Source: Bacteriovoracaceae bacterium (GTDB taxonomy: Bacteria; Bdellovibrionota; Bacteriovoracia; Bacteriovoracales; Bacteriovoracaceae). From it: 64,000 nt of DNA. Where the stretch lies: positions 310,001 to 374,000 of the forward strand of contig JANJTC010000003.1 in the NCBI GenBank assembly GCA_024711325.1. The letters are read 5' to 3'. Below are positions 53,124-64,000 of this stretch, piece after piece (the stretch's first letter is position 1; every line of letters begins with the position of its first letter). Made by a program: the position numbers and the translations under genes. Under the pieces are notes generated by a model. That model was not told where the DNA came from. It saw nothing but the letters and a program-made list of their open reading frames with translations, and did not search any database.

Positions 53124-53199
53124 AAGCTTTAACCCCTTAGTGGCATTTGGTAATATCTTGGTCCAATAGTAGTAATTTGTCACCTTGGACGGAGGATCG

Positions 53200-55938
53200 A
53201 TGAAGCAGTTCATCATGGGCCAACGCTGGATATCGGAATCAGAACCTGAGCTAGGGCTTGGGGTGATCGTTGAAGTTGAGGCCAAAACAGTTACATGTTT
53301 CTTTCCTGCGACCAAAGTTGATCGCCGATACGGCATGCAAACCGCCCCGCTTAGACGAATAAAGTTCATTGAAGGCGATGAGATCAAGGGTCAGGATGGA
53401 TCAAGTTTCGTTGTAGAGTCACTCACTGAAGATAAGGGAATTGTAACTTATCATGGGCAAGGGAAAACCCTGTCCGAATCTCAGTTGGCCGATACGCTTT
53501 CTTTTTCGAAACCGGAAGAAAGGCTTTTTGCAGGAAATATTGATTCTAACGAAATTTTCAAGCTTCGATATGATGTGCTTTTAAATCAAAGGAAATTGTT
53601 CATCAGCCCTATCCGTGGTTTTACCGGTCCGAGGATTGGTTTAATTCCACATCAGATGTATGTGGCCAATGAAGTTTCAAAACGAACCAGACCTCGGGTT
53701 CTCCTGGCGGACGAAGTTGGATTAGGGAAAACTATTGAAGCTGGTCTTATCCTTCATCACTTAATTCTCACAGGTCGGGTGGAGCGTTGTCTGATTATCG
53801 TTCCTGATTCTCTGGTCTATCAGTGGTTTGTGGAGATGCTCAGGAAGTTTCAAATGACTTTCCAGACCATCAATCACGATGCAGGGTTAAAACGTGGTGA
53901 TACTCCATTTGAAGAAGGTCAACTCTTTGTTGCCTCTTTAAGATATCTCATGAAAGAAGACTGGCTGCTTGAGCAGGCGATGGAATCGAAATGGGATCTG
54001 TTAGTAGTCGATGAGGCCCATCAGTTAAGATGGGCACCGGATAACTCTTCCATGGAATATGATTTTGTCGCGGCCCTGGCAAAGGATACTCCGGGAGTCC
54101 TTTTGCTTTCAGGGACACCTGAGATTTTAGGACTCGCTGGTCACTATGCTCGCTTACACCTTCTGGATTCAAATCGATTCCATAACTTTAATCAGTTTGT
54201 AGAAGAGACGACTGGTTACAAACCCATCACGGAGCTTGCTAATAAACTTATCAAAGGCGAAACGCTTAAGGCCGATGACAAGAAAATGCTTAAGGCTAAG
54301 ATTGGAGTGGATGTAGAAGGTCTGGATAAAGATAAGGCCCTCCAGATGCTGGTCGATCGTCACGGAACAGGGCGAGTTTATTTTAGAAACACCCGCAAAA
54401 CCATGGCAACGTATTCTGAGTTTTTTCCCAAGAGGGTTTTCCATTCTTATCCGATTAAGCTGGGTAAGACCAAGGCACCTGAGAAGAAACTGTTTGAACT
54501 GAAGTCTCAGTGGTTGGCAGAATTTGTAGAAAATCATAAGAATGATAAAACCCTTCTTATCTGTCACGATAAAGATGTGGTGGTAGAACTGGAGAAGGTT
54601 CTTAGGGAGAAAACAACGGTTAAAGTTGCTTTCTTTCACTCAGGAATGAATTTGATGAATCGTGACCGTCAAGCGGCCTACTTTGCTGATCCTGAAGGGG
54701 CACATATCTTACTTAGTACTGAAATCGGATCAGAGGGACGCAATTTTGAATTTGCCCGTCACTTGATTCTATTTGATCTTCCAAAGCTTCCGGATTTACT
54801 TGAGCAGAGGATTGGACGACTGGACCGTATTGGCCAGAAGAACGATATCCAGATTCACGTTCCGTATGTTGAAAAATCCGGTGATGAACTATTGATGCGT
54901 TGGTATCACGAGGGCTTTAATGCTTTCGAATCATCTCCTCGAGGCGGAACAGAATTATATGCAACGGTCAGACCAGAGTTACTAGAACTTACTCAAAGTG
55001 TAGAGGAAGGAAATTATCCTGAAAAAGAATTTGCTGCCTTCTTAAAGAAAACACAAAACATTCATCAGGAGATTGAAAAGAAGCTGGAAGAGGGTCAGGA
55101 TCAGTTAGTTGAAATTAATTCTTTTAATCATACTAAGGCGATGGAATTCGTTAAAGAACTTAAAGACGTTGATGATTCAACTGAACTGCGTGATTTCATG
55201 CTCAATCTTTTTAATCGGCTGGGTGTGGACGCTGAGGATATGAATGATCCTTTTACCTTCTTTATCAGGCCTGGGGACAATATGTTCTTGCCTCATTTTC
55301 CGGGATTGGAGAATGAAGGAATGACAATCACCTTTAAACGGGAAATTGCTCTTCAAAGGGAAGATATGACTTTTCTTACCTGGGATCATCCAATGGTTCT
55401 GGGGATTATGGATTTTATTTCTTCCAAAGAAATGGGAAATGTAACGATGGCCACTTGGAAGGCCCCATCCAAGGAATCTTTCTTGTTTGAAGGTTATTTC
55501 CTCTTAAGTGCCATTGCAGATAAAAAGCTTCAGCTCCAGAAATGGTTCCCTCCAACTCCACTTCGAGTCCTCTTGAATGCCCAGGTTCAGGATGTGACTC
55601 AGAAATTGCCCAAGAAATTTATCGATGAAAATACGGAGTCCCTTGATCAGGAACGACGTGCTCAGATGAAAGAGCTTCCGAAAGATTTCATTAAAGAGTG
55701 TATTAAAAAAGGTAAAGAACTCTGCGTGGTAAGAGCTCGCCAATACAAAGAAAAATTTAAAGATGATATGTTGAAGTTTATGAATGCTGAAATAGAACGA
55801 CTTGAGGCCTTACGGAAGGTCAATCCAACTGTTTCAGAAACTGAAATTCTGCTACTTCGCTATAACCGTGACAATATGGTTAAGGCGATGGACAAGGCCG
55901 AACTATCACTTGATTCACTTCGGATAATCATAAATTAA
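53200..55938 (+). CDS. RapA/HepA-like RNA polymerase-associated SWI/SNF ATPase
   Basis: Swi2/Snf2 ATPase of 912 residues. RapA recycles stalled RNA polymerase in E. coli. The N-terminal Tudor-like part (GQRWISESEPELGLG and VDRRYGMQTAPLRRI) is characteristic of RapA. Walker A ADEVGLGKTIEAG, DEAH box VVDEAHQLRW, SGTPEILGLAGHYARL and motif VI EQRIGRLDRIGQ are present; the long C-terminal domain is diverged. The ATG at 53200 follows GGAGG; the upstream start at 53185 is less likely. It leads an operon with thioredoxin, a small protein and a GNAT enzyme. Confidence 0.9.
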   Translation: MKQFIMGQRWISESEPELGLGVIVEVEAKTVTCFFPATKVDRRYGMQTAPLRRIKFIEGDEIKGQDGSSFVVESLTEDKGIVTYHGQGKTLSESQLADTLSFSKPEERLFAGNIDSNEIFKLRYDVLLNQRKLFISPIRGFTGPRIGLIPHQMYVANEVSKRTRPRVLLADEVGLGKTIEAGLILHHLILTGRVERCLIIVPDSLVYQWFVEMLRKFQMTFQTINHDAGLKRGDTPFEEGQLFVASLRYLMKEDWLLEQAMESKWDLLVVDEAHQLRWAPDNSSMEYDFVAALAKDTPGVLLLSGTPEILGLAGHYARLHLLDSNRFHNFNQFVEETTGYKPITELANKLIKGETLKADDKKMLKAKIGVDVEGLDKDKALQMLVDRHGTGRVYFRNTRKTMATYSEFFPKRVFHSYPIKLGKTKAPEKKLFELKSQWLAEFVENHKNDKTLLICHDKDVVVELEKVLREKTTVKVAFFHSGMNLMNRDRQAAYFADPEGAHILLSTEIGSEGRNFEFARHLILFDLPKLPDLLEQRIGRLDRIGQKNDIQIHVPYVEKSGDELLMRWYHEGFNAFESSPRGGTELYATVRPELLELTQSVEEGNYPEKEFAAFLKKTQNIHQEIEKKLEEGQDQLVEINSFNHTKAMEFVKELKDVDDSTELRDFMLNLFNRLGVDAEDMNDPFTFFIRPGDNMFLPHFPGLENEGMTITFKREIALQREDMTFLTWDHPMVLGIMDFISSKEMGNVTMATWKAPSKESFLFEGYFLLSAIADKKLQLQKWFPPTPLRVLLNAQVQDVTQKLPKKFIDENTESLDQERRAQMKELPKDFIKECIKKGKELCVVRARQYKEKFKDDMLKFMNAEIERLEALRKVNPTVSETEILLLRYNRDNMVKAMDKAELSLDSLRIIIN

Positions 55939-56265: not shown

Positions 56266-56502
56266 ATGGACGTCAAAGTAATCAAAGATCTGGCGCAAAA
56301 ATATACTGTTGATGAACTCAACAAGTTTGCTGACCATTTTGAAGCCACTGGCTTTGCGGTGGTTAAAACTCAGGAGGATCCGGGTGATCAAATGAGTGAT
56401 TATCTTCAGGCCGCTGAACTTCGGGCCCTTTTAGATAAGGGAATGAATGTTAACGAAGCGGTGAGAGAGTTTTCTAAAAGAGTCAGAGGAGTGCTTTCTT
56501 GA
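56266..56502 (+). CDS. Small conserved-looking hypothetical protein
   Basis: Not recognised: a 78-residue, soluble, mainly helical protein (VIKDLAQKYTVDELNKFADHFE...). The C-terminal half resembles a short helix pair with a basic end (FSKRVRGVL). It lies between thioredoxin and GNAT genes, overlapping the latter by 4 bp (TTGA), so it is part of that operon and probably real. Confidence 0.7.
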   Translation: MDVKVIKDLAQKYTVDELNKFADHFEATGFAVVKTQEDPGDQMSDYLQAAELRALLDKGMNVNEAVREFSKRVRGVLS

Positions 56503-56954
56503 ATATTAAAATCAGACCAGGCCTTTTGTTCGATATTGAGACCATTGCTGAATATCAAGTCAAGATGGCGCTTGAAACCGAAAATATGAAACTTAATCCT
56601 GCCACAGTTAACCTAGGTGTAACTGCAGTGATGGATGATCCTGGTAAAGGAAAATATTGGTTGGCCGAAATTGATGGTAAAGTGGCCGGTTGCCTTTTAA
56701 CTGTTCCAGAGTGGAGTGATTGGAGAAATGGGACTGTCCTCTGGATCCACTCAGTTTACGTTCATCCGGATTTTAGAAAACATGGAGTTTATAAGGCCAT
56801 GTATGGACACTTAAAACAGATGGTAAATGAGGACCATGATTTAAGAGGTCTAAGACTTTATGTGGATAAAACGAATCAAGACGCCCAGAAAGTTTATGAA
56901 GCTTTAGGTATGTCGGGTGAGCATTATCATCTTTTTGAGTGGATGAAGGGTTAG
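56499..56954 (+). CDS. GNAT family N-acetyltransferase
   Basis: A 151-residue acetyltransferase. The acetyl-CoA region is HSVYVHPDFRKHGVYKAMYGHL (VHPDFRKHGVYKAM matches motif A, with V-x-P-x-x-R-x-x-G), and the C-terminal VYEALGMSGEHYHLFEW is typical of the family. The start is TTG at 56499, overlapping the preceding gene. Substrate unknown. Last gene of the rapA operon. Confidence 0.88.
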   Translation: MNIKIRPGLLFDIETIAEYQVKMALETENMKLNPATVNLGVTAVMDDPGKGKYWLAEIDGKVAGCLLTVPEWSDWRNGTVLWIHSVYVHPDFRKHGVYKAMYGHLKQMVNEDHDLRGLRLYVDKTNQDAQKVYEALGMSGEHYHLFEWMKG

Positions 56955-57141: not shown

Positions 57142-60100
57142 ATGTTGCGGTTATTTTTACTGAGTTTGTTTTTTTACAATCTGCCATCATTTTCAGCCTT
57201 CGCCGGTGATTCACTCAGCTATTCTGGCAGATTAGTAAATGCCGACGGCTCCCCTGTTACCGGCACTGCCCACCTCAAGTTTGATCTGGCCTATACCAAT
57301 AATCTTTCAACTATTCTCTGTACGCATGACAATCCTGGGGTTGATTTAATCAACGGGGTCTTTCATGCAAAGCTTGAATTCAATTGTCCATCTTCCTCAT
57401 TAAAGGAAGTATTGGAGGGAGTTCAAACTAATAATTCAATAGCTATTAGGGTAACGGACTTAAGTCGAGCAACTCCTAAGGTTTATTCCTTTCAGGCGCT
57501 GAACTCTGTTCCTTATTCGATCATGGCAAATTTTGCCAAACAGTTATCGCTGGTTGGAACTGCTACGGGGCAGGTTCTGACTTGGAATGGTTCTGCATGG
57601 ACGGCGGCTGATCCAGTTGGCACTGTTGGTGGAGTAACAACGATTGCCGCTGAACAAGGATTAAATGCCGTCAAAGTTGATGATACAGTGACCATTGGGA
57701 TTCTTGATGGGGGAGTGACTGCACAGAAACTTCATCCGATGGGTGCTACCACGGCGGGACAGGTTCTTAAATGGAATGGTTCGAATTGGGGGCCGGGAGC
57801 TGATACTGATACCGGAATTACGTCTGAGACCGATCCTAATGTCAGAACATTTGCACGCACAGACATCACGGGCCTGGTTCCTGAATCCTGTTCGCCTCAT
57901 CAGGCCCTTCATTATATTTTGATGAATGACTCTTTAGAGTGTGTGGACATAAGAGCTGCCAGTGTGGCCGATACTATCAACGATGCTGAAACGGATAAAG
58001 CTCCTTCTCAAAATGCTGTTTTTGATGCCTTAGCGTTGAAACAAAATACAATTAATGCCAGCAGTGATGTTGTGATGAAATCATTAAAGCTCATGACAGA
58101 TGGAACTACCTGGATGGGGATCAAGGCCCCTGCTACTTCAGGTAACTTGTTTTTTACCTTGCCGGCCGGAGACGGAACAGTAGGGCAGGTATTAAAGACT
58201 GACGGTGCAGGAAATCTTGGTTGGACTGATGCCAATGCAGGAACAATTACTGGTATCACCACGACTGCTCCCTTATCTGGAACGGGAAGTTCCGGCAGTG
58301 TGAATCTTTCTGTTAATTACGATAATGCAACTTTAGGTTTAAATGGCAGTAATGCTTTGATTGTTAAAGACAGTGGCATTAGTAACAATCACATTGCAGC
58401 TCTGGCCAATATTAATTGGACAAAAATTAATAAAACAGGTGCTGTTGCTTCTGATGTCGGTGCCGTTCCAACTTCACGATTAATTAGTACCGGCACTGGT
58501 CTTTTGGGTGGCGGTAACATGTCGGCGGATCGCACGCTTAGTGTGGATGTTGGAACAACGGCCGGAAAAATTGTCCAAGTAGATGGTACCAGTAAATTAC
58601 CGGCCATCGATGGAAGTCAGTTGACTAATCTTTTATGGTCACAAATTCAAACAACATCCCTTCCAATAATCACTGCAGGAACAGGATTAACGACTACGGG
58701 AAGTTTGGCCAGTGGTCAGACATTAAACGTCGATGTGGGAACTGTTGCTGGAAAAATTGTTCAGCTTGAAGCGGGCGGAAAATTACCGGCCGTTGACGGT
58801 AGCCAGTTAACTAATCTTGGAACTAATTTAGGCAAATGGTCTGATGCCACAGGTGGAATACATTATTCATCTGGTAATGTTGGTATTGGAACTACGACGC
58901 CTGATCGAAAACTCCAAGTATCGCGGGGAGGAGTTAATTCTTCAATTCGTCTTGATGGTTTTGCGGCCGGTGGTAATTTTTCAACTCTCATGGCCGGTTC
59001 TGATTTTGGGTCTCTAATAGAAGGTGGAGATAACGGACAGGTAGTTCTTGCTTTAAAAGACAATGACATTAACGATGGCTTTAGAATCATTTCCGGTGGT
59101 GGAAATTTTATGGCCGATAGTATTTATGACACTACCGTATTTACTGCTCAGTCAAATGGGAATGTTGGAATTGGGACAACTTCACCAACTACCACGCTTG
59201 ATATTCGTTCGACACAGCCGAGTTCAACTGTTCATCCTTATCGTAACGGTCTATTGGTATCCAGCGAAGGAACCGATGTTGGTGGGCGAATTGGTCTCAG
59301 GACCTCTTCAATTGGAGAAAATCCTTGGGTTATAGGTTATCGATCTCGTGGCACACTTGCTACGCCAACTGCTGTTCAGTCAGCGGACATGCTACTGGGG
59401 ATTATTGCGGCCGGATATGATGGAACCGCTTATACAGTCTCAGGCACGACTCCTGAAATTCTTTTTAGGACCACCGAAAATTGGACGTCGACGGCCCATG
59501 GAAGCGAAATTCACTTTAAAACAGTAAGCAATGGAACAAGCACTGCTGCTACAAGGATGAGTATTTCCAACGGCGGCAATATTGGGATTGGTACAGCATC
59601 ACCCTCAACTCCTCTTCACGTGTCCACAGCTTTAGGAACGACATCGCTCTTTCAAAGCTCTAATACAAGTTATACAAATGTGCAGCTTAATAACTCCTCA
59701 TCTTCAAAAACATGGAATCTCCTAACTGTAGGAAGTTTAGCCGGTACGTATGGAGCAGCTGGCGCTTTCACAATAGATGAAGCAAGTGGTGGACCTCGAT
59801 TCACGATAGCCACAGGTGGTAATGTGGGGATTGGGACAACGACTCCCGCAAGTAAATTACATGTTGCTTCCTCTACCGCTAATACTCAAATCCGAGTTGA
59901 AGCTGCCACTACGGCGTCTCAGGCAGAATATTATTCCGTGGCTAATGGAACTTCCTGGGTAATGGGAACTGGAGCAGGTGCTCCTGGCTCTACTAATTTA
60001 GGATTTTATAATAGTGGAACCAAGATGGTCTTAACTCCTACTGGGAATTTAGGTATTGGGACGGCCGCCCCCGCTTCAAAATTAGAATTAAGAGGCGGAA

Positions 60101-60825
60101 ATGCTTTTTTTGACAGTAAAGTCTTTGTTTATAGTAATTCCGGTTGGGGTGCAGTGACCCCTTCAGTAAGTCTGGCCATAGGTGATAATGATACCGGTAT
60201 TAACTGGGTGTCTGATGGAGTTATGCAACTTTATAATAACAATGTGCCTGTCATTCATGTTGGTCTAGGGAGCGTCGGGATTGGCAGTACAACTCCTGGC
60301 CATAAACTAGATGTTGAAGGAAATATTCGGACATCAGGTTGTCTTTATTATAATGGTGGATCTCTTGGAACTTGTGCCTCTGATGAACGACTTAAGGATG
60401 AGGTTCAATCTTTTAACCTAGGGCTCGATGAATTACTTGGAATTAATCCTGTCTATTTTAAGTACAACGGTCTAGGTGGGCTACCTACCGATGGCGGAAA
60501 ACAACTAGGTGTGATCGCGCAAGAAATTGAAAAAGCGGCACCTGATTTAATCGTAAAAAAGAAAGTGAAGCTCAGCCCTGATGATAATTTTGATACTGAG
60601 ATCAAGGCGGTAGATTATGGCGCATTTACTTATGTCATAATCAATTCCATCAAAGAAATACACGAAATGGTTACTGAATTATTTGATGGGAAGAAAGAAG
60701 TCATTAGAGAAATTGCCAGTTTAAAAGAAGATAATCTTCGTAAAGAAAAAGAGATTGAAGATCTTAAAATGTATATTTGCCAAAAAGATCCAGAAGCTTC
60801 ATTTTGTAAAAAACATGGTCGGTGA
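57142..60825 (+). CDS. Fibre protein 1 with C-terminal S74 intramolecular chaperone
   Basis: A 1227-residue exported fibre. Signal peptide (first 21 residues); an N-terminal beta domain (DSLSYSGRLVNADGSPV..., about 25-130); a long repetitive shaft; at least six copies of a G(N/S)(V/I/L)GIG(T/S)xxP motif (DNA near 58873, 59158, 59575, 59818, 60042, 60270); and a C-terminal peptidase-S74 chaperone domain. Predicted self-cleavage is before Ser1080 in SDERLKD, with Lys1085 completing the Ser-Lys pair; a coiled coil ends the protein. The chaperone should fold the trimer then be released. Bdellovibrio proteins of this plan (mosaic adhesive trimers) bind prey; that function here is inferred. A paralogue follows. 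Confidence 0.9.
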   Translation: MLRLFLLSLFFYNLPSFSAFAGDSLSYSGRLVNADGSPVTGTAHLKFDLAYTNNLSTILCTHDNPGVDLINGVFHAKLEFNCPSSSLKEVLEGVQTNNSIAIRVTDLSRATPKVYSFQALNSVPYSIMANFAKQLSLVGTATGQVLTWNGSAWTAADPVGTVGGVTTIAAEQGLNAVKVDDTVTIGILDGGVTAQKLHPMGATTAGQVLKWNGSNWGPGADTDTGITSETDPNVRTFARTDITGLVPESCSPHQALHYILMNDSLECVDIRAASVADTINDAETDKAPSQNAVFDALALKQNTINASSDVVMKSLKLMTDGTTWMGIKAPATSGNLFFTLPAGDGTVGQVLKTDGAGNLGWTDANAGTITGITTTAPLSGTGSSGSVNLSVNYDNATLGLNGSNALIVKDSGISNNHIAALANINWTKINKTGAVASDVGAVPTSRLISTGTGLLGGGNMSADRTLSVDVGTTAGKIVQVDGTSKLPAIDGSQLTNLLWSQIQTTSLPIITAGTGLTTTGSLASGQTLNVDVGTVAGKIVQLEAGGKLPAVDGSQLTNLGTNLGKWSDATGGIHYSSGNVGIGTTTPDRKLQVSRGGVNSSIRLDGFAAGGNFSTLMAGSDFGSLIEGGDNGQVVLALKDNDINDGFRIISGGGNFMADSIYDTTVFTAQSNGNVGIGTTSPTTTLDIRSTQPSSTVHPYRNGLLVSSEGTDVGGRIGLRTSSIGENPWVIGYRSRGTLATPTAVQSADMLLGIIAAGYDGTAYTVSGTTPEILFRTTENWTSTAHGSEIHFKTVSNGTSTAATRMSISNGGNIGIGTASPSTPLHVSTALGTTSLFQSSNTSYTNVQLNNSSSSKTWNLLTVGSLAGTYGAAGAFTIDEASGGPRFTIATGGNVGIGTTTPASKLHVASSTANTQIRVEAATTASQAEYYSVANGTSWVMGTGAGAPGSTNLGFYNSGTKMVLTPTGNLGIGTAAPASKLELRGGNAFFDSKVFVYSNSGWGAVTPSVSLAIGDNDTGINWVSDGVMQLYNNNVPVIHVGLGSVGIGSTTPGHKLDVEGNIRTSGCLYYNGGSLGTCASDERLKDEVQSFNLGLDELLGINPVYFKYNGLGGLPTDGGKQLGVIAQEIEKAAPDLIVKKKVKLSPDDNFDTEIKAVDYGAFTYVIINSIKEIHEMVTELFDGKKEVIREIASLKEDNLRKEKEIEDLKMYICQKDPEASFCKKHGR

Positions 60826-60921
60826 GATGGCCAATTTAAGTGGCAAAGAGCTTATTTCAGTATTCCCCCCATCCCCATAAGTAGCTAATTTCATGCCTTC
60901 CCCTAGGCAAATTTGTAAGCA

Positions 60922-60951
60922 TTAGGAATAAATTAATAGAGGGCCTATAAT
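60922..60951 (+). promoter_or_regulatory. Shared-type promoter of fibre gene 2
   Basis: TTAGGA (60922-60927), 18 bases, TATAAT (60946-60951), and identical ATAATTT after the -10 as in fibre gene 1. A 35-base leader and an SD (AGGA, 60978-60981) separate it from the ATG at 60987. Confidence 0.55.
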
Positions 60952-60986
60952 TTCTTATTCGTGTGATCTAGCGAATTAGGATATCA

Positions 60987-63900
60987 ATGGTTCGAATCAT
61001 TCAGTTATTAATAATTCTAGTTTGCTGTTTTTCCCACAATGTTGGTGCTACTGATTCATTAAGTTATTCAGGACGCTTGGTTAATTCTGATGGATCTCCG
61101 GTTGTTGGGCCAGCTAAGCTCAAGTTCGACCTGGCCTACACTGATGATCTTAACAATATTCTTTGTACCCATCAGATTCCTTCATCTGATCTTGTTAATG
61201 GCGTTTTCCATGCGAAGTTGTCCTTCACTTGCCCTGATACTACTTTGGCCAAGGTTTTAGAAAACGTGCCTTTAAACAATTCTATTGCTATTCGGGTGAC
61301 CAATGAGAGTCCAGCAACTCCCAAGGTCTATTCCTTTCAGGCACTGAATTCTGTTCCTTATTCCATCATGGCGAATTTTGCTAAACAGCTATCACTGGCA
61401 GGAACTGCTACGGGCCAGGTTCTGACCTGGAATGGTTCGGCGTGGACGGCCGCTGATCCAGTTGGGACACCAGGTGGAGTCACTACTATTTCCGCTGAGC
61501 AAGGACTAAGTGGAGTTAAGGTTGATGATACAGTGACCATTGGGATTCTTGATGGGGGAGTGACTGCTCAAAAACTTCATCCGATGGGGGCTGCGACCGT
61601 GGGACAGGTTCTAAAGTGGAACGGTTCGAATTGGGAAGCTGGAGTTGATGCTGATACGGGTATTACTTCTGAGGCTGATCCCCTCGTCCGTAAATTTGCC
61701 AGGACTGATATCACAGGAATTGTTCCTCCAACATGTACTAGCGATAAAACTCTTCAATATATTTCTGCTACAGATTCTTTTATATGTAATGACATCGTTA
61801 TTAATTCAACGGAAGTAGATCGGGTAAGAGATGCATCGGTGGCCGATGCCATCAACGATGCTGAAACAACCATTGCTCCTTCACAGAATGCAGTCTTTGA
61901 TGCCCTTGCCGGAAAGCAAAGCACTCTTACTTCTTCCAGTGATATTACACTCAAGTATTTAAAGCTCATGACGGATGGTGCCTTTTGGGTGGGACTTAAA
62001 GCGCCTATTTCTACCGCTGGAAATATTCTTTTTACTCTACCAAGTGCTGACGGAACAACTGGCCAGGTCTTGAAGACAGATGGATCTGGTAACTTGGGTT
62101 GGGTGGATGCTGCAAGTGGAACGTTGACTGAAATTACAACTTCTGTCCCACTTTCTGGCTCTGGTTCTTCAGGCAGCGTGGCCCTCTCAATTAACTATGA
62201 CAATTCAACCATTGGTCTAAATGGCAGTAATGCCCTTGCAGTAAAAAATGCAGGAATCAGCAATGCACATATCGCCGCTTTGGCCGGAATTGATTGGAGT
62301 AAAATCAATAAGACGGGAGCAACAGCTTCGGATGTTGGGGCCGTGCCAGCAGCAAGAACCATTAGTACCGGCACTGGTCTTTTGGGTGGCGGTGACTTAT
62401 CTGCCAACAGAACACTCTCTGTTGACGTAGGAACAACTGCCGGAAAAATTGTTCAGGTCGATGGTACGGGTAAATTACCTGCCATTGATGGAAGTCAATT
62501 AACAAACTTATTATGGTCTCAGGTCAGTAAGGCCGGCTCAACTAATCTCATTGCAGGAGTTGGTCTGAACGGCGGTGGGGACTTATCGGCAGACCGGACT
62601 TTTGATGTTGATGTTGGAACAACTGCAGGAAAAATAGTTCAATTAGATGGAGCAGGAAAACTTCCTGCTGTTGATGGAAGTCAATTAACTAATTTAGGAA
62701 CTAATCTAGGTAAATGGTCGAATGCTACTGGTGGTATTCATTATTCATCTGGTAACGTCGGAATTGGAACAAACGCTCCATCCAGTCCCCTTCATGTTAA
62801 TGTTAGTGCTGGAGGCAATAAAATTCTTGCCAGTTATTCTGTCGCCGGCAACGGCTCCAATCTTACGATCAATAGCCCAGGTGCAGTCGGGCAATATCTT
62901 TCTGGCTCTTCTCAAGGTGATACCGTCATCAGGACAGAAAATAATAATTTAAGATTGGGAGTTTCATCAGCTACAGGGCATGTCGGTTTCGGAAATGGTA
63001 GTACTGAATGGTTAAGAATAATATCTTCGGGCTTCGTCGGCATTGGAACGACGACACCTACCACAACACTACAATTAGCTAACTCAATCTATTTCAATGA
63101 AGGGGCCGGCAATATTGCCAATGGAGCAGATATCCGATTTGGCGCTTCTGGTTTGGTTAGTGCTGATGACACATTACTTTTAAATATAGATGGAAATAAC
63201 ACTGGAACTGGTGATCTAAGTCTTAGAAAGGGAGCACATACCTCTGCAGGAACAACTCTTTTCACAGTAAAGAATTCAGGTAGCGTTGGAATAGGAACCA
63301 ATTCACCTGAAGAAATGCTTGATGTTAATGGTGATATTAGGGCATTTGCGAATGAAAGTTATAATGTCATAGAATCCAGAACAGCTTCCAATGCTAACTT
63401 ATCTCCTCACTTGATTTTACGTCGAAGCCGGGGAACTGTTCCAGTACCGGCCTATGTCCAAACCGGTGATACCATGGGCCTTTTGACTTTTAGAAATCAT
63501 ACTGCCACACAAGGCGCTACAGTGGCTTCATATGCAACAGAAAATCAAACTGCCGGCTCATGGGGTGCAAATCTGGCCTTCTTTACTATTGCTAATGGTA
63601 GTGTTGTGAATTCTGAGAGGATGCGAATAGACCAAACGGGAAATGTTGGGATAGGTACAAGTAATCCATCTGGGAAACTGACAGTTACTTCAACCACAGG
63701 AAGCAATGTTATATCAATTGAGAGGCCTGCCGGAAATTTTGGACTGTTGAAATATTCAACCGGTGTTAACAGGCGGTGGGAGATGGGAGTTAACTCATCT
63801 TTAGAAACCGGATCACATGTAGGCTCAGATTTTGGGCTATGGAGTTATGGAGATGATGGTTCCCAGAATCAAATTCTCTTTGTAACGAGATCAACTGGCT

Positions 63901-64000
63901 ATGTAGGAATTGGTAAACCATCTCCGGCCACTAAGCTCAATGTTGAAGGAGCAATGGCAGCGACTGGTTGGGTGGGGGCAGGATGTGAGGATGCATGTAG
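60987..64000 (+). CDS. Fibre protein 2, paralogue, 3' end outside window
   Basis: Open frame from ATG 60987 (SD AGGA) to the right edge, at least 1004 residues. The signal peptide begins MVRIIQLLIILVCCFSHNVG. The N-terminal domain and shaft closely match fibre 1 (LSYSGRLVNSDGSPV, QVLTWNGSAW, STGTGLLGGGDLSANRTLS), but the distal half differs, with five GxVGIG motifs in other contexts. The visible end (VGIGKPSPATKLNVEG) corresponds to the segment just before the chaperone in fibre 1, so an S74 domain should follow outside the window. Contrasting distal regions suggest different target specificity. Confidence 0.88.
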   Translation, partial: MVRIIQLLIILVCCFSHNVGATDSLSYSGRLVNSDGSPVVGPAKLKFDLAYTDDLNNILCTHQIPSSDLVNGVFHAKLSFTCPDTTLAKVLENVPLNNSIAIRVTNESPATPKVYSFQALNSVPYSIMANFAKQLSLAGTATGQVLTWNGSAWTAADPVGTPGGVTTISAEQGLSGVKVDDTVTIGILDGGVTAQKLHPMGAATVGQVLKWNGSNWEAGVDADTGITSEADPLVRKFARTDITGIVPPTCTSDKTLQYISATDSFICNDIVINSTEVDRVRDASVADAINDAETTIAPSQNAVFDALAGKQSTLTSSSDITLKYLKLMTDGAFWVGLKAPISTAGNILFTLPSADGTTGQVLKTDGSGNLGWVDAASGTLTEITTSVPLSGSGSSGSVALSINYDNSTIGLNGSNALAVKNAGISNAHIAALAGIDWSKINKTGATASDVGAVPAARTISTGTGLLGGGDLSANRTLSVDVGTTAGKIVQVDGTGKLPAIDGSQLTNLLWSQVSKAGSTNLIAGVGLNGGGDLSADRTFDVDVGTTAGKIVQLDGAGKLPAVDGSQLTNLGTNLGKWSNATGGIHYSSGNVGIGTNAPSSPLHVNVSAGGNKILASYSVAGNGSNLTINSPGAVGQYLSGSSQGDTVIRTENNNLRLGVSSATGHVGFGNGSTEWLRIISSGFVGIGTTTPTTTLQLANSIYFNEGAGNIANGADIRFGASGLVSADDTLLLNIDGNNTGTGDLSLRKGAHTSAGTTLFTVKNSGSVGIGTNSPEEMLDVNGDIRAFANESYNVIESRTASNANLSPHLILRRSRGTVPVPAYVQTGDTMGLLTFRNHTATQGATVASYATENQTAGSWGANLAFFTIANGSVVNSERMRIDQTGNVGIGTSNPSGKLTVTSTTGSNVISIERPAGNFGLLKYSTGVNRRWEMGVNSSLETGSHVGSDFGLWSYGDDGSQNQILFVTRSTGYVGIGKPSPATKLNVEGAMAATGWVGAGCEDAC

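Follow-up and report, generated by a model that had tools for sequence, protein, structure and literature searches.

Fibre genes of a Bacteriovoracaceae genome differ between close relatives by whole capped modules, with joints mostly at the capping-loop motif

Why should two neighbouring genes for large exported proteins be alike over their first half and very different over the rest? The question is raised by the end of a 64,000-nucleotide (nt) stretch of a Bacteriovoracaceae genome, G000 (contig C3, positions 310001-374000; hereafter the window), where two fibre genes lie in tandem on the forward strand: fibre 1 at 57142-60825, encoding 1227 amino acids (aa), and fibre 2 at 60987-64000, which is cut by the window end and is complete at 1160 aa in the genome (L031 4988-8470). 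The genome is 3.55 Mb in size, in 7 contigs, and 93% complete. It was compared with the close relative G002 and with the genomes G003, G007 and G025. We favour, at a probability of roughly 0.74, an account in which these genes belong to a four-gene array resembling the mosaic adhesive trimer (MAT) proteins, whose capped modules may be exchanged by recombination with the fibre genes of other strains.

Judged from their sequences, the fibres consist of an N-terminal domain (N-domain), a shaft and a run of modules that open with the capping-loop motif GxVGIGxxxP, and are closed by an S74 domain or another C-terminal domain. In fibre 1 the signal peptide (recognised by eye) and MAT-like N-domain occupy aa 1-140 (57142-57561), the shaft aa 141-577 (57562-58872), the interior modules aa 578-892 (58873-59817) and the distal modules aa 893-1042 (59818-60267). 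The Peptidase_S74 core follows at aa 1080-1136 (60379-60549; PF13884, E 1.4e-10, 41.8 bits against a gathering score of 22), with Ser1080 and Lys1085 in SDERLK when checked in the sequence. An earlier reading of the window from its letters alone (the sequence-only reading) had placed a complete S74 chaperone here, which is confirmed, and had supposed fibre 2 to be cut just before its own; that domain starts 74 bases past the window edge at C3:374000 (aa 1030-1082, C3:374074-374232, E 1.9e-18, 67 bits). It had also described an adjacent pair sharing a front and differing distally. The genes are indeed adjacent and related, and they diverge close to the first GNVGIGTTTP (aa 578), the aa identity between fibres 1 and 2 being 69% (aa 1-140), 76% (141-577), 21% (578-1079) and 28% (1080-1227). 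The N-termini are less alike than "share" implies, however, at 58% for the first 50 aa with the signal peptide counted in, and the pair is part of a tandem array of four genes (1227, 1160, 1205 and 1029 aa). S74 is present with SDxRLK in fibres 1-3 (fibre 3: E 1e-11, 45.3 bits) and was not found in fibre 4 by Pfam domain search; fibre 4 closes with another, putatively adhesive, C-terminal domain. The suggested repertoire of paralogues was borne out by an N-domain profile search of G000, which gave 11 strong matches (E 3.0e-89 to 2.5e-77; these are the profile's own rows, two of which lie in genes truncated at a contig end) and 2 weak ones. The genome holds 13 S74 domains.

By the same kind of evidence, whole modules have been replaced, inserted, lost or reordered between orthologous fibres; the joints are mostly at the motif, and the anchor on one side and the distal end on the other usually stay the same. 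Seven G000/G002 orthologue pairs (F1-F5, F9 and F10) were compared using blastn blocks and module-by-module aa identity; F6 and F7 of G000 were excluded as the G002 contig ends and leaves no complete orthologue. Interior modules were replaced or rearranged, and both ends kept, in five of the seven (F1, F2, F4, F5 and F9). The blocks kept are aa 1-359 (83% nt identity) and 894-1227 (90%) in F1, aa 1-604 (93%) and 885-1160 (95%) in F2, with one module moved in order (82%), aa 1-435 and 837-1455 (95%) in F5, and aa 1-1080 (93%) and 1175-1344 (88%) in F9. In F4 one module (688-749) differs and the flanks are kept on either side at 87-88% nt. In F10, aa 1-1589 are kept (89% nt) and the remaining C-terminal end, including S74, is replaced. 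Replaced modules have no match in the G002 orthologue, or one of at most 42% aa, except in F5 (68%), and from the exchange to the C-terminus the modules share 89-100% aa in F1, F2, F4, F5 and F9. As a control, all 12 other genes of the region of at least 250 aa align as one full-length block at 92-98% nt.

For the two genes in the window, the interior modules of fibre 1 have no close counterpart in the G002 or G007 orthologues (best 41% aa), and its distal modules share 93-95% aa with G002 and 83-92% with G007. In fibre 2 the first of the interior modules at aa 589-764 (62751-63278) lacks a G002 counterpart and the second has one of only 42% aa, in another place; the module at aa 765-884 (63279-63638) shares 82% aa with a G002 module placed elsewhere in the order (685-805). 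The difference in F4 can be polarised: the G002 module is also found in G007 (85% aa) and G003 (61%), the G000 module has no match in any of these genomes, and the change therefore took place in the G000 lineage. Polarisation is weaker for F9, where G002 goes with G007 at 43%.

Tip-swapping, as proposed for Bdellovibrio, would have the anchor conserved and the distal tip change, and the sequence-only reading likewise spoke of varied tips. Paralogues within the genome do differ most distally, F10 has had its C-terminal end replaced, one orthologue pair of the genomes G158 and G175 (see below) has its tip replaced past the last cap, and the main-text sections of the MAT paper (PMC10769870) infer an exchange of the C-terminus between Bd2133 and Bd1334. 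Between the close species, however, it is mostly the interior modules that vary. In 6 of the 7 pairs the distal end, from one to five final modules together with S74 or the tip, is well conserved, the last module retains 94-99% aa in five of them despite interior replacement or rearrangement, and the last module of F4 in G000 is found at 99, 91 and 70% aa in G002, G007 and G003, so that tip-swapping is unlikely to be the explanation. The sequence-only reading had counted identical distal regions in relatives against itself; aa 893-1227 of fibre 1 are close to that in G002 (93-95% aa), but aa 578-892 are replaced.

The joints themselves lie close to the motif. Among 13 chained block ends in the G000/G002 pairs (the two F4 ends at an N gap of G002 were dropped, and the single F10 end was added to the remaining 12), 10 are within 10 aa of GxVGIGxxxP. 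Of 400 random simulated joints run through the same blastn, 17.7% were within 10 aa and 12.0% within 5 aa of the motif, and the latter figure indicates that conserved motifs alone do not pull block ends towards them. In an all-against-all blastn of 68 fibre-like open reading frames (ORFs) from G000, G002, G003, G007 and G025, where motifs are spaced at a median of 113 aa (middle half 89-226), 45 of 77 ends from 27 genes were within 5 aa of the motif, against a null of 10.6 ± 2.9 and a maximum of 21 in 2000 randomisations (blocks of at least 75% identity and at least 150 nt). The ORFs were chosen by their N-domain or by at least three motif-like matches. At least one of them (G025 C1:2701792) is probably no fibre, and two genes, F4 of G002 and one from G000, enter the set in fragments. 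With 85% identity and 200 nt the count was 14 of 20 ends against 2.9 ± 1.5; at 60-75% identity the excess was weaker, 224 of 879 ends against 97.

The same was seen further afield. Fibres of other genomes that score over the cut-off of the NCBIfam model NF053851 (Bdello_MAT_N) comprised 41 ORFs from 7 genomes of the phylum, most likely Bdellovibrio and its kin, 39 stretches having been fetched from 8 genomes. In this set 8 of 14 ends were within 5 aa of the motif (null 1.9 ± 1.3, maximum 8); here, as for the 68 ORFs, ends less than 25 aa from either end of the protein or more than 30 aa ahead of the first motif were omitted. Four of nine G158/G175 pairs are broken: one has gained or lost a single cap-to-cap module (806-892), one has the replaced tip already mentioned, one differs in the shaft, and in the fourth the replaced interior has one of its joints on a cap, the other lying 19 aa away from a cap.

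Such a pattern could also arise if metagenome assemblies had mis-joined modules at repeated motifs. Two of the sequences concerned, L044 and L045, are metagenome-assembled genomes (MAGs), contigs C2 and C3 of G000 end in the same shaft sequence, and F4 of G002 carries the N gap. The pattern is nevertheless repeated in separate assemblies, the F4 module is common to G002, G007 and G003, G158 and G175 show the same, the 12 control genes are unbroken, and joins at shared short words are unlikely when random copies of the motif are only 64-65% identical. An assembly artefact is accordingly very improbable.

The account that we prefer can be set out as follows. The fibres would be trimers on the cell surface, with the S74 domain folding the trimer and then cleaving itself off. 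Each cap-to-cap module would be an independently folding trimeric beta-helix segment, the cap forming the border between segments, and recombination with the fibre genes of other strains would allow modules to be swapped. Exchange at caps would work because a joint there keeps the segments on either side foldable and so survives selection, and the exchanged modules would be expected to alter glycan-binding faces along the fibre.

Several results weigh against it. F3 is unchanged from end to end (92.2% nt, 93-97% aa per module) and shows no exchange, and F5 is only partly replaced, since a related but shifted block at aa 643-848 (80% nt), omitted by the chain, is present in both genomes; with its two ends added, 11 of 15 ends are near the motif. 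Three joints are off it, at F1 aa 359 (LKTDGAGNLxW-like), F5 aa 435 (NIAQSKIxxL-like) and F10 aa 1589 (SRLGIG), the last of which looks like a degenerate cap lacking the proline and was counted as a miss. Block ends from related genes are not independent, and five of the nine G158/G175 pairs are unbroken. The six fibres of G000 that were tested all match Bdello_MAT_N, at 15.9-21.3 bits (best in the genome 24.5), far below its cut-off of 60; structure models were poor, with a predicted local distance difference test (pLDDT) score of 48.4 for the N-domain and 41.0 for the F4 tip. For 7 of 13 replaced segments no donor at 70% nt or more was found among the 68 ORFs. Finally, the motif DNA has little or no extra synonymous conservation and supports no DNA-level mechanism: pairwise identity over 30 nt is 0.64-0.65 between random copies, and codon choice is mostly as elsewhere, apart from a preference for ATT as the Ile codon (0.59, compared with 0.43; four genomes) and slighter excesses at some further positions.

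This mixed codon choice speaks against a DNA-level hot spot in the motif. The lack of special conservation in the motif DNA points to selection for foldable products in preference to such a hot spot, and together with the absence of a reverse transcriptase (RVT_1) match from the 93% complete genome it makes the joints look structural and not the product of a dedicated mutator. A dedicated diversification system would be either a diversity-generating retroelement, rejected in view of the missing RVT_1 match, or cassette conversion from neighbouring paralogues, for which the tandem paralogues with their shared shafts are a possible reservoir. When the 13 replaced segments were compared with the other fibres of their own genome, however, the closest match reached 76% over 97 nt and none exceeded 77% nt, as against 83-95% in the kept blocks, so intragenomic cassettes were also rejected; change is by whole modules instead of many point changes, and F3 stands unchanged. 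Diversification of this kind is highly improbable.

Where, then, might the modules come from? The 94-aa F9 module is found in 1 of 129 genomes of the order, its own. The fibre 2 modules (160 aa) are found in 13 of the 129 including their own, outside which identity is at most 41% for the longer matches and at most 49% over short stretches. For the fibre 1 interior the best relatives outside the genome reach 56-57% aa, over the first third only, in G057 and G259, which belong to other genera. A phage donor for this interior was looked for and not found, with no match in 50,697 phage records and, in viral contigs, 5 pattern matches of which 0 were confirmed. Import from unsampled strains is the likeliest source, a paralogue in the missing part of the genome being the alternative.

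It might also be asked whether these are the tail fibres of a prophage or tailocin instead of predator adhesins. S74 and GxVGIG do occur in phage tail fibres, the T5 L-shaped fibre and the K1F endosialidase, which the MAT paper names, and chain 6f45 share the C-terminal S74 chaperone (the long tail fibre chain 6f45 aligns to fibre 1 aa 1006-1182, E 7.5e-12), and a partial match to fibre 1 occurs in 27 of the 50,697 phage records. Yet identity in the 20 listed of those 27 is only 23-31%, and the replaced part has neither a phage match nor a confirmed viral-contig relative. Unlike the phage proteins, moreover, the G000 fibres appear to be exported and of cell-surface type, with signal peptides seen by eye, and they occupy the same chromosomal slot in several genomes; no phage structural gene was noticed nearby when the flanking ORFs were inspected by eye, no family search of them having been made. 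That they are such tail fibres is very unlikely on this evidence. A 1998 study of phage fibres reportedly described the exchange of fibre segments at short conserved motifs; the present case differs in being a bacterial chromosomal gene array, in having the GxVGIGxxxP cap as its motif, and in that the motif DNA is not specially conserved.

The MAT-like plan put forward by the sequence-only reading is upheld by N-domain homology, by S74 and by modules that match solved chains. The fibre 1 N-domain was placed using the alignment of 11 own-genome paralogues, hhalign and NF053851 (18.1 bits). In hhalign, the 11 own N-domains and 12 N-domains above the Bdello_MAT_N cut-off gave a probability of 96.1% (E 2.8e-9, 117 columns, 22% identity). 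Fibre modules in G000 match the chains 8oml, 8on4, 8ol4 and 8ojn, which we take to be tips of HD100 MATs, since 8ond from that series carries the name bd2133; the Bd number of 8oml is presumed likewise. Chain 8oml aligns to fibre 1 aa 663-829 (E 3.6e-27), with the cap motif at both ends included.

In the main-text sections of Caulton et al. 2024 (PMC10769870), HD100 is given 21 MATs whose N-terminal domain spans about 130 aa; they have capping loops of the consensus V-G-G/N-pi-x-x-P-x-x-x-L that limit a surface cleft, and S74 or other tips. As far as that text describes them, the G000 fibres resemble these proteins in the N-terminal domain after a signal peptide, the long fibre, the capped beta-helix modules, the S74 or other tips and the many paralogues. 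The conserved and putatively beta-rich N-terminal domain of about this length is supported by homology, the capping-loop consensus by 281 relaxed GxVGIGxxxP matches in the 68 fibre-like ORFs, and the S74 (SDxxxK) tip by fibres 1-3. They are unlike the HD100 proteins in their distant N-domain, in the tandem array of four, and in that orthologues change mostly in interior modules with joints at the capping loop; no cap-joint rule was found in the main-text sections covered. Bdello_MAT_N is matched over its cut-off in 58 of 191 genomes of the phylum, and the G000 fibres are, by their profile scores, MAT-like proteins outside this curated subfamily. Literature searches returned nothing naming Bdello_MAT_N and nothing joining predatory bacteria with a chaperone of endosialidase, and a search of a Bacteriovorax comparison (PMC12827227) gave no occurrence of mosaic, fibre, fiber or S74.

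Database taxonomy places Bacteriovoracaceae in the class Bacteriovoracia of Bdellovibrionota, and the closest named records to G000 are the Bacteriovoracaceae MAGs DFXY01000066.1 (L045, UBA4096) and JAMPXB010000026.1 (L044). Upstream of the array, on the forward strand, are a helicase-like gene at 53185-55938, one unbroken block at 93.6% nt in G002, and an acetyltransferase-like gene at 56499-56954, in the same place in L044 and L045; both were named by eye. In G002 the flanks agree and the four fibres keep their order, the array slot of G007 holds two fibres, and G003 has at least six beside similar downstream genes, with a contig end nearby.

A second fibre slot lies between like flanking genes at G000 C3:397908-414852, G002 C5:125826, G003 C2:59002-91396 and G025 C1:938871-956085, with one fibre in G000 and G002, three in G003 and five in G025, followed by a conserved gene of 322-330 aa. 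Contigs C2 (23871) and C3 (414852) of G000 both stop inside a fibre gene, in identical shaft sequence; the assembly thus breaks in shared fibre repeats, and the fibres there are incomplete. The fibre gene at L036 3-3954 (G000 C1:1130002-1133953) is in two frames in G000 and in one 1483-aa frame in G002 C66, which reflects either a frame change or an assembly error. At L035 5104-11385 (G000 C1:891103-897384) is a 2094-aa MAT-like fibre with internal YadA head repeats (PF05658, 26.5 bits, cut-off 25).

Other types of S74 protein were also observed. The product of L040 4158-5876 (G000 C1:1005157-1006875; 573 aa) begins with a prepilin N-terminus (Pfam N_methyl, 24.3 bits, cut-off 21.2), ends in an S74 domain (E 4.2e-16), and is possibly a pilin-anchored S74 fibre; G002 C10 has a matching reading frame of the same length. 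A second S74 protein, at L041 3557-4990, is directly behind a prepilin-like gene. At L037 3793-5682 and six other sites (G002 C66:68277; G025 C1:3946081, 3950278, 3954660, 3058292 and 3062917) the GxVGIG fibres encoded lack the YSGRL motif of the N-domain and start like lipoproteins, a Cys following a hydrophobic stretch when judged by eye, with S74 present in the first by Pfam and in four of the six others by motif. Their N-termini suggest that they are perhaps a second anchoring type.

These fibres may bear on how a predator keeps pace as its prey change the sugars on their surface; that this organism is a predator we infer from its family only. Bd3182 has a cleft between two capping loops, for which a comparison with the P22 tailspike's O-antigen site has been drawn, and Bd2133 has no cleft of this kind (PMC10769870, main-text sections). 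If each cap-to-cap module offers a Bd3182-like face, interior exchange would change recognition along the fibre with anchor and chaperone staying; Bd2133 means that a face per module will not hold for every module. Tentatively, and at odds well short of even, the fibres of Bdellovibrionota may be strings of interchangeable cap-to-cap beta-helix segments with the capping loop as a universal joint that lets segments fold in many orders, their fast-evolving recognition surface lying along the side of the fibre, between an anchor and a tip or chaperone that stay fixed, and not mainly at its tip, and repertoires evolving by the import of whole segments from other strains. If fibres do import whole capped segments, natural pairs that differ only inside would be clean tests of segment-glycan binding, and the joint rule, if true, would be a guide to cutting fibres into soluble units for structural and binding studies. 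MAT-like fibres in Bacteriovoracaceae are described by the present comparison, which suggests that comparative studies of specificity take in the length of the fibre in addition to its tip.

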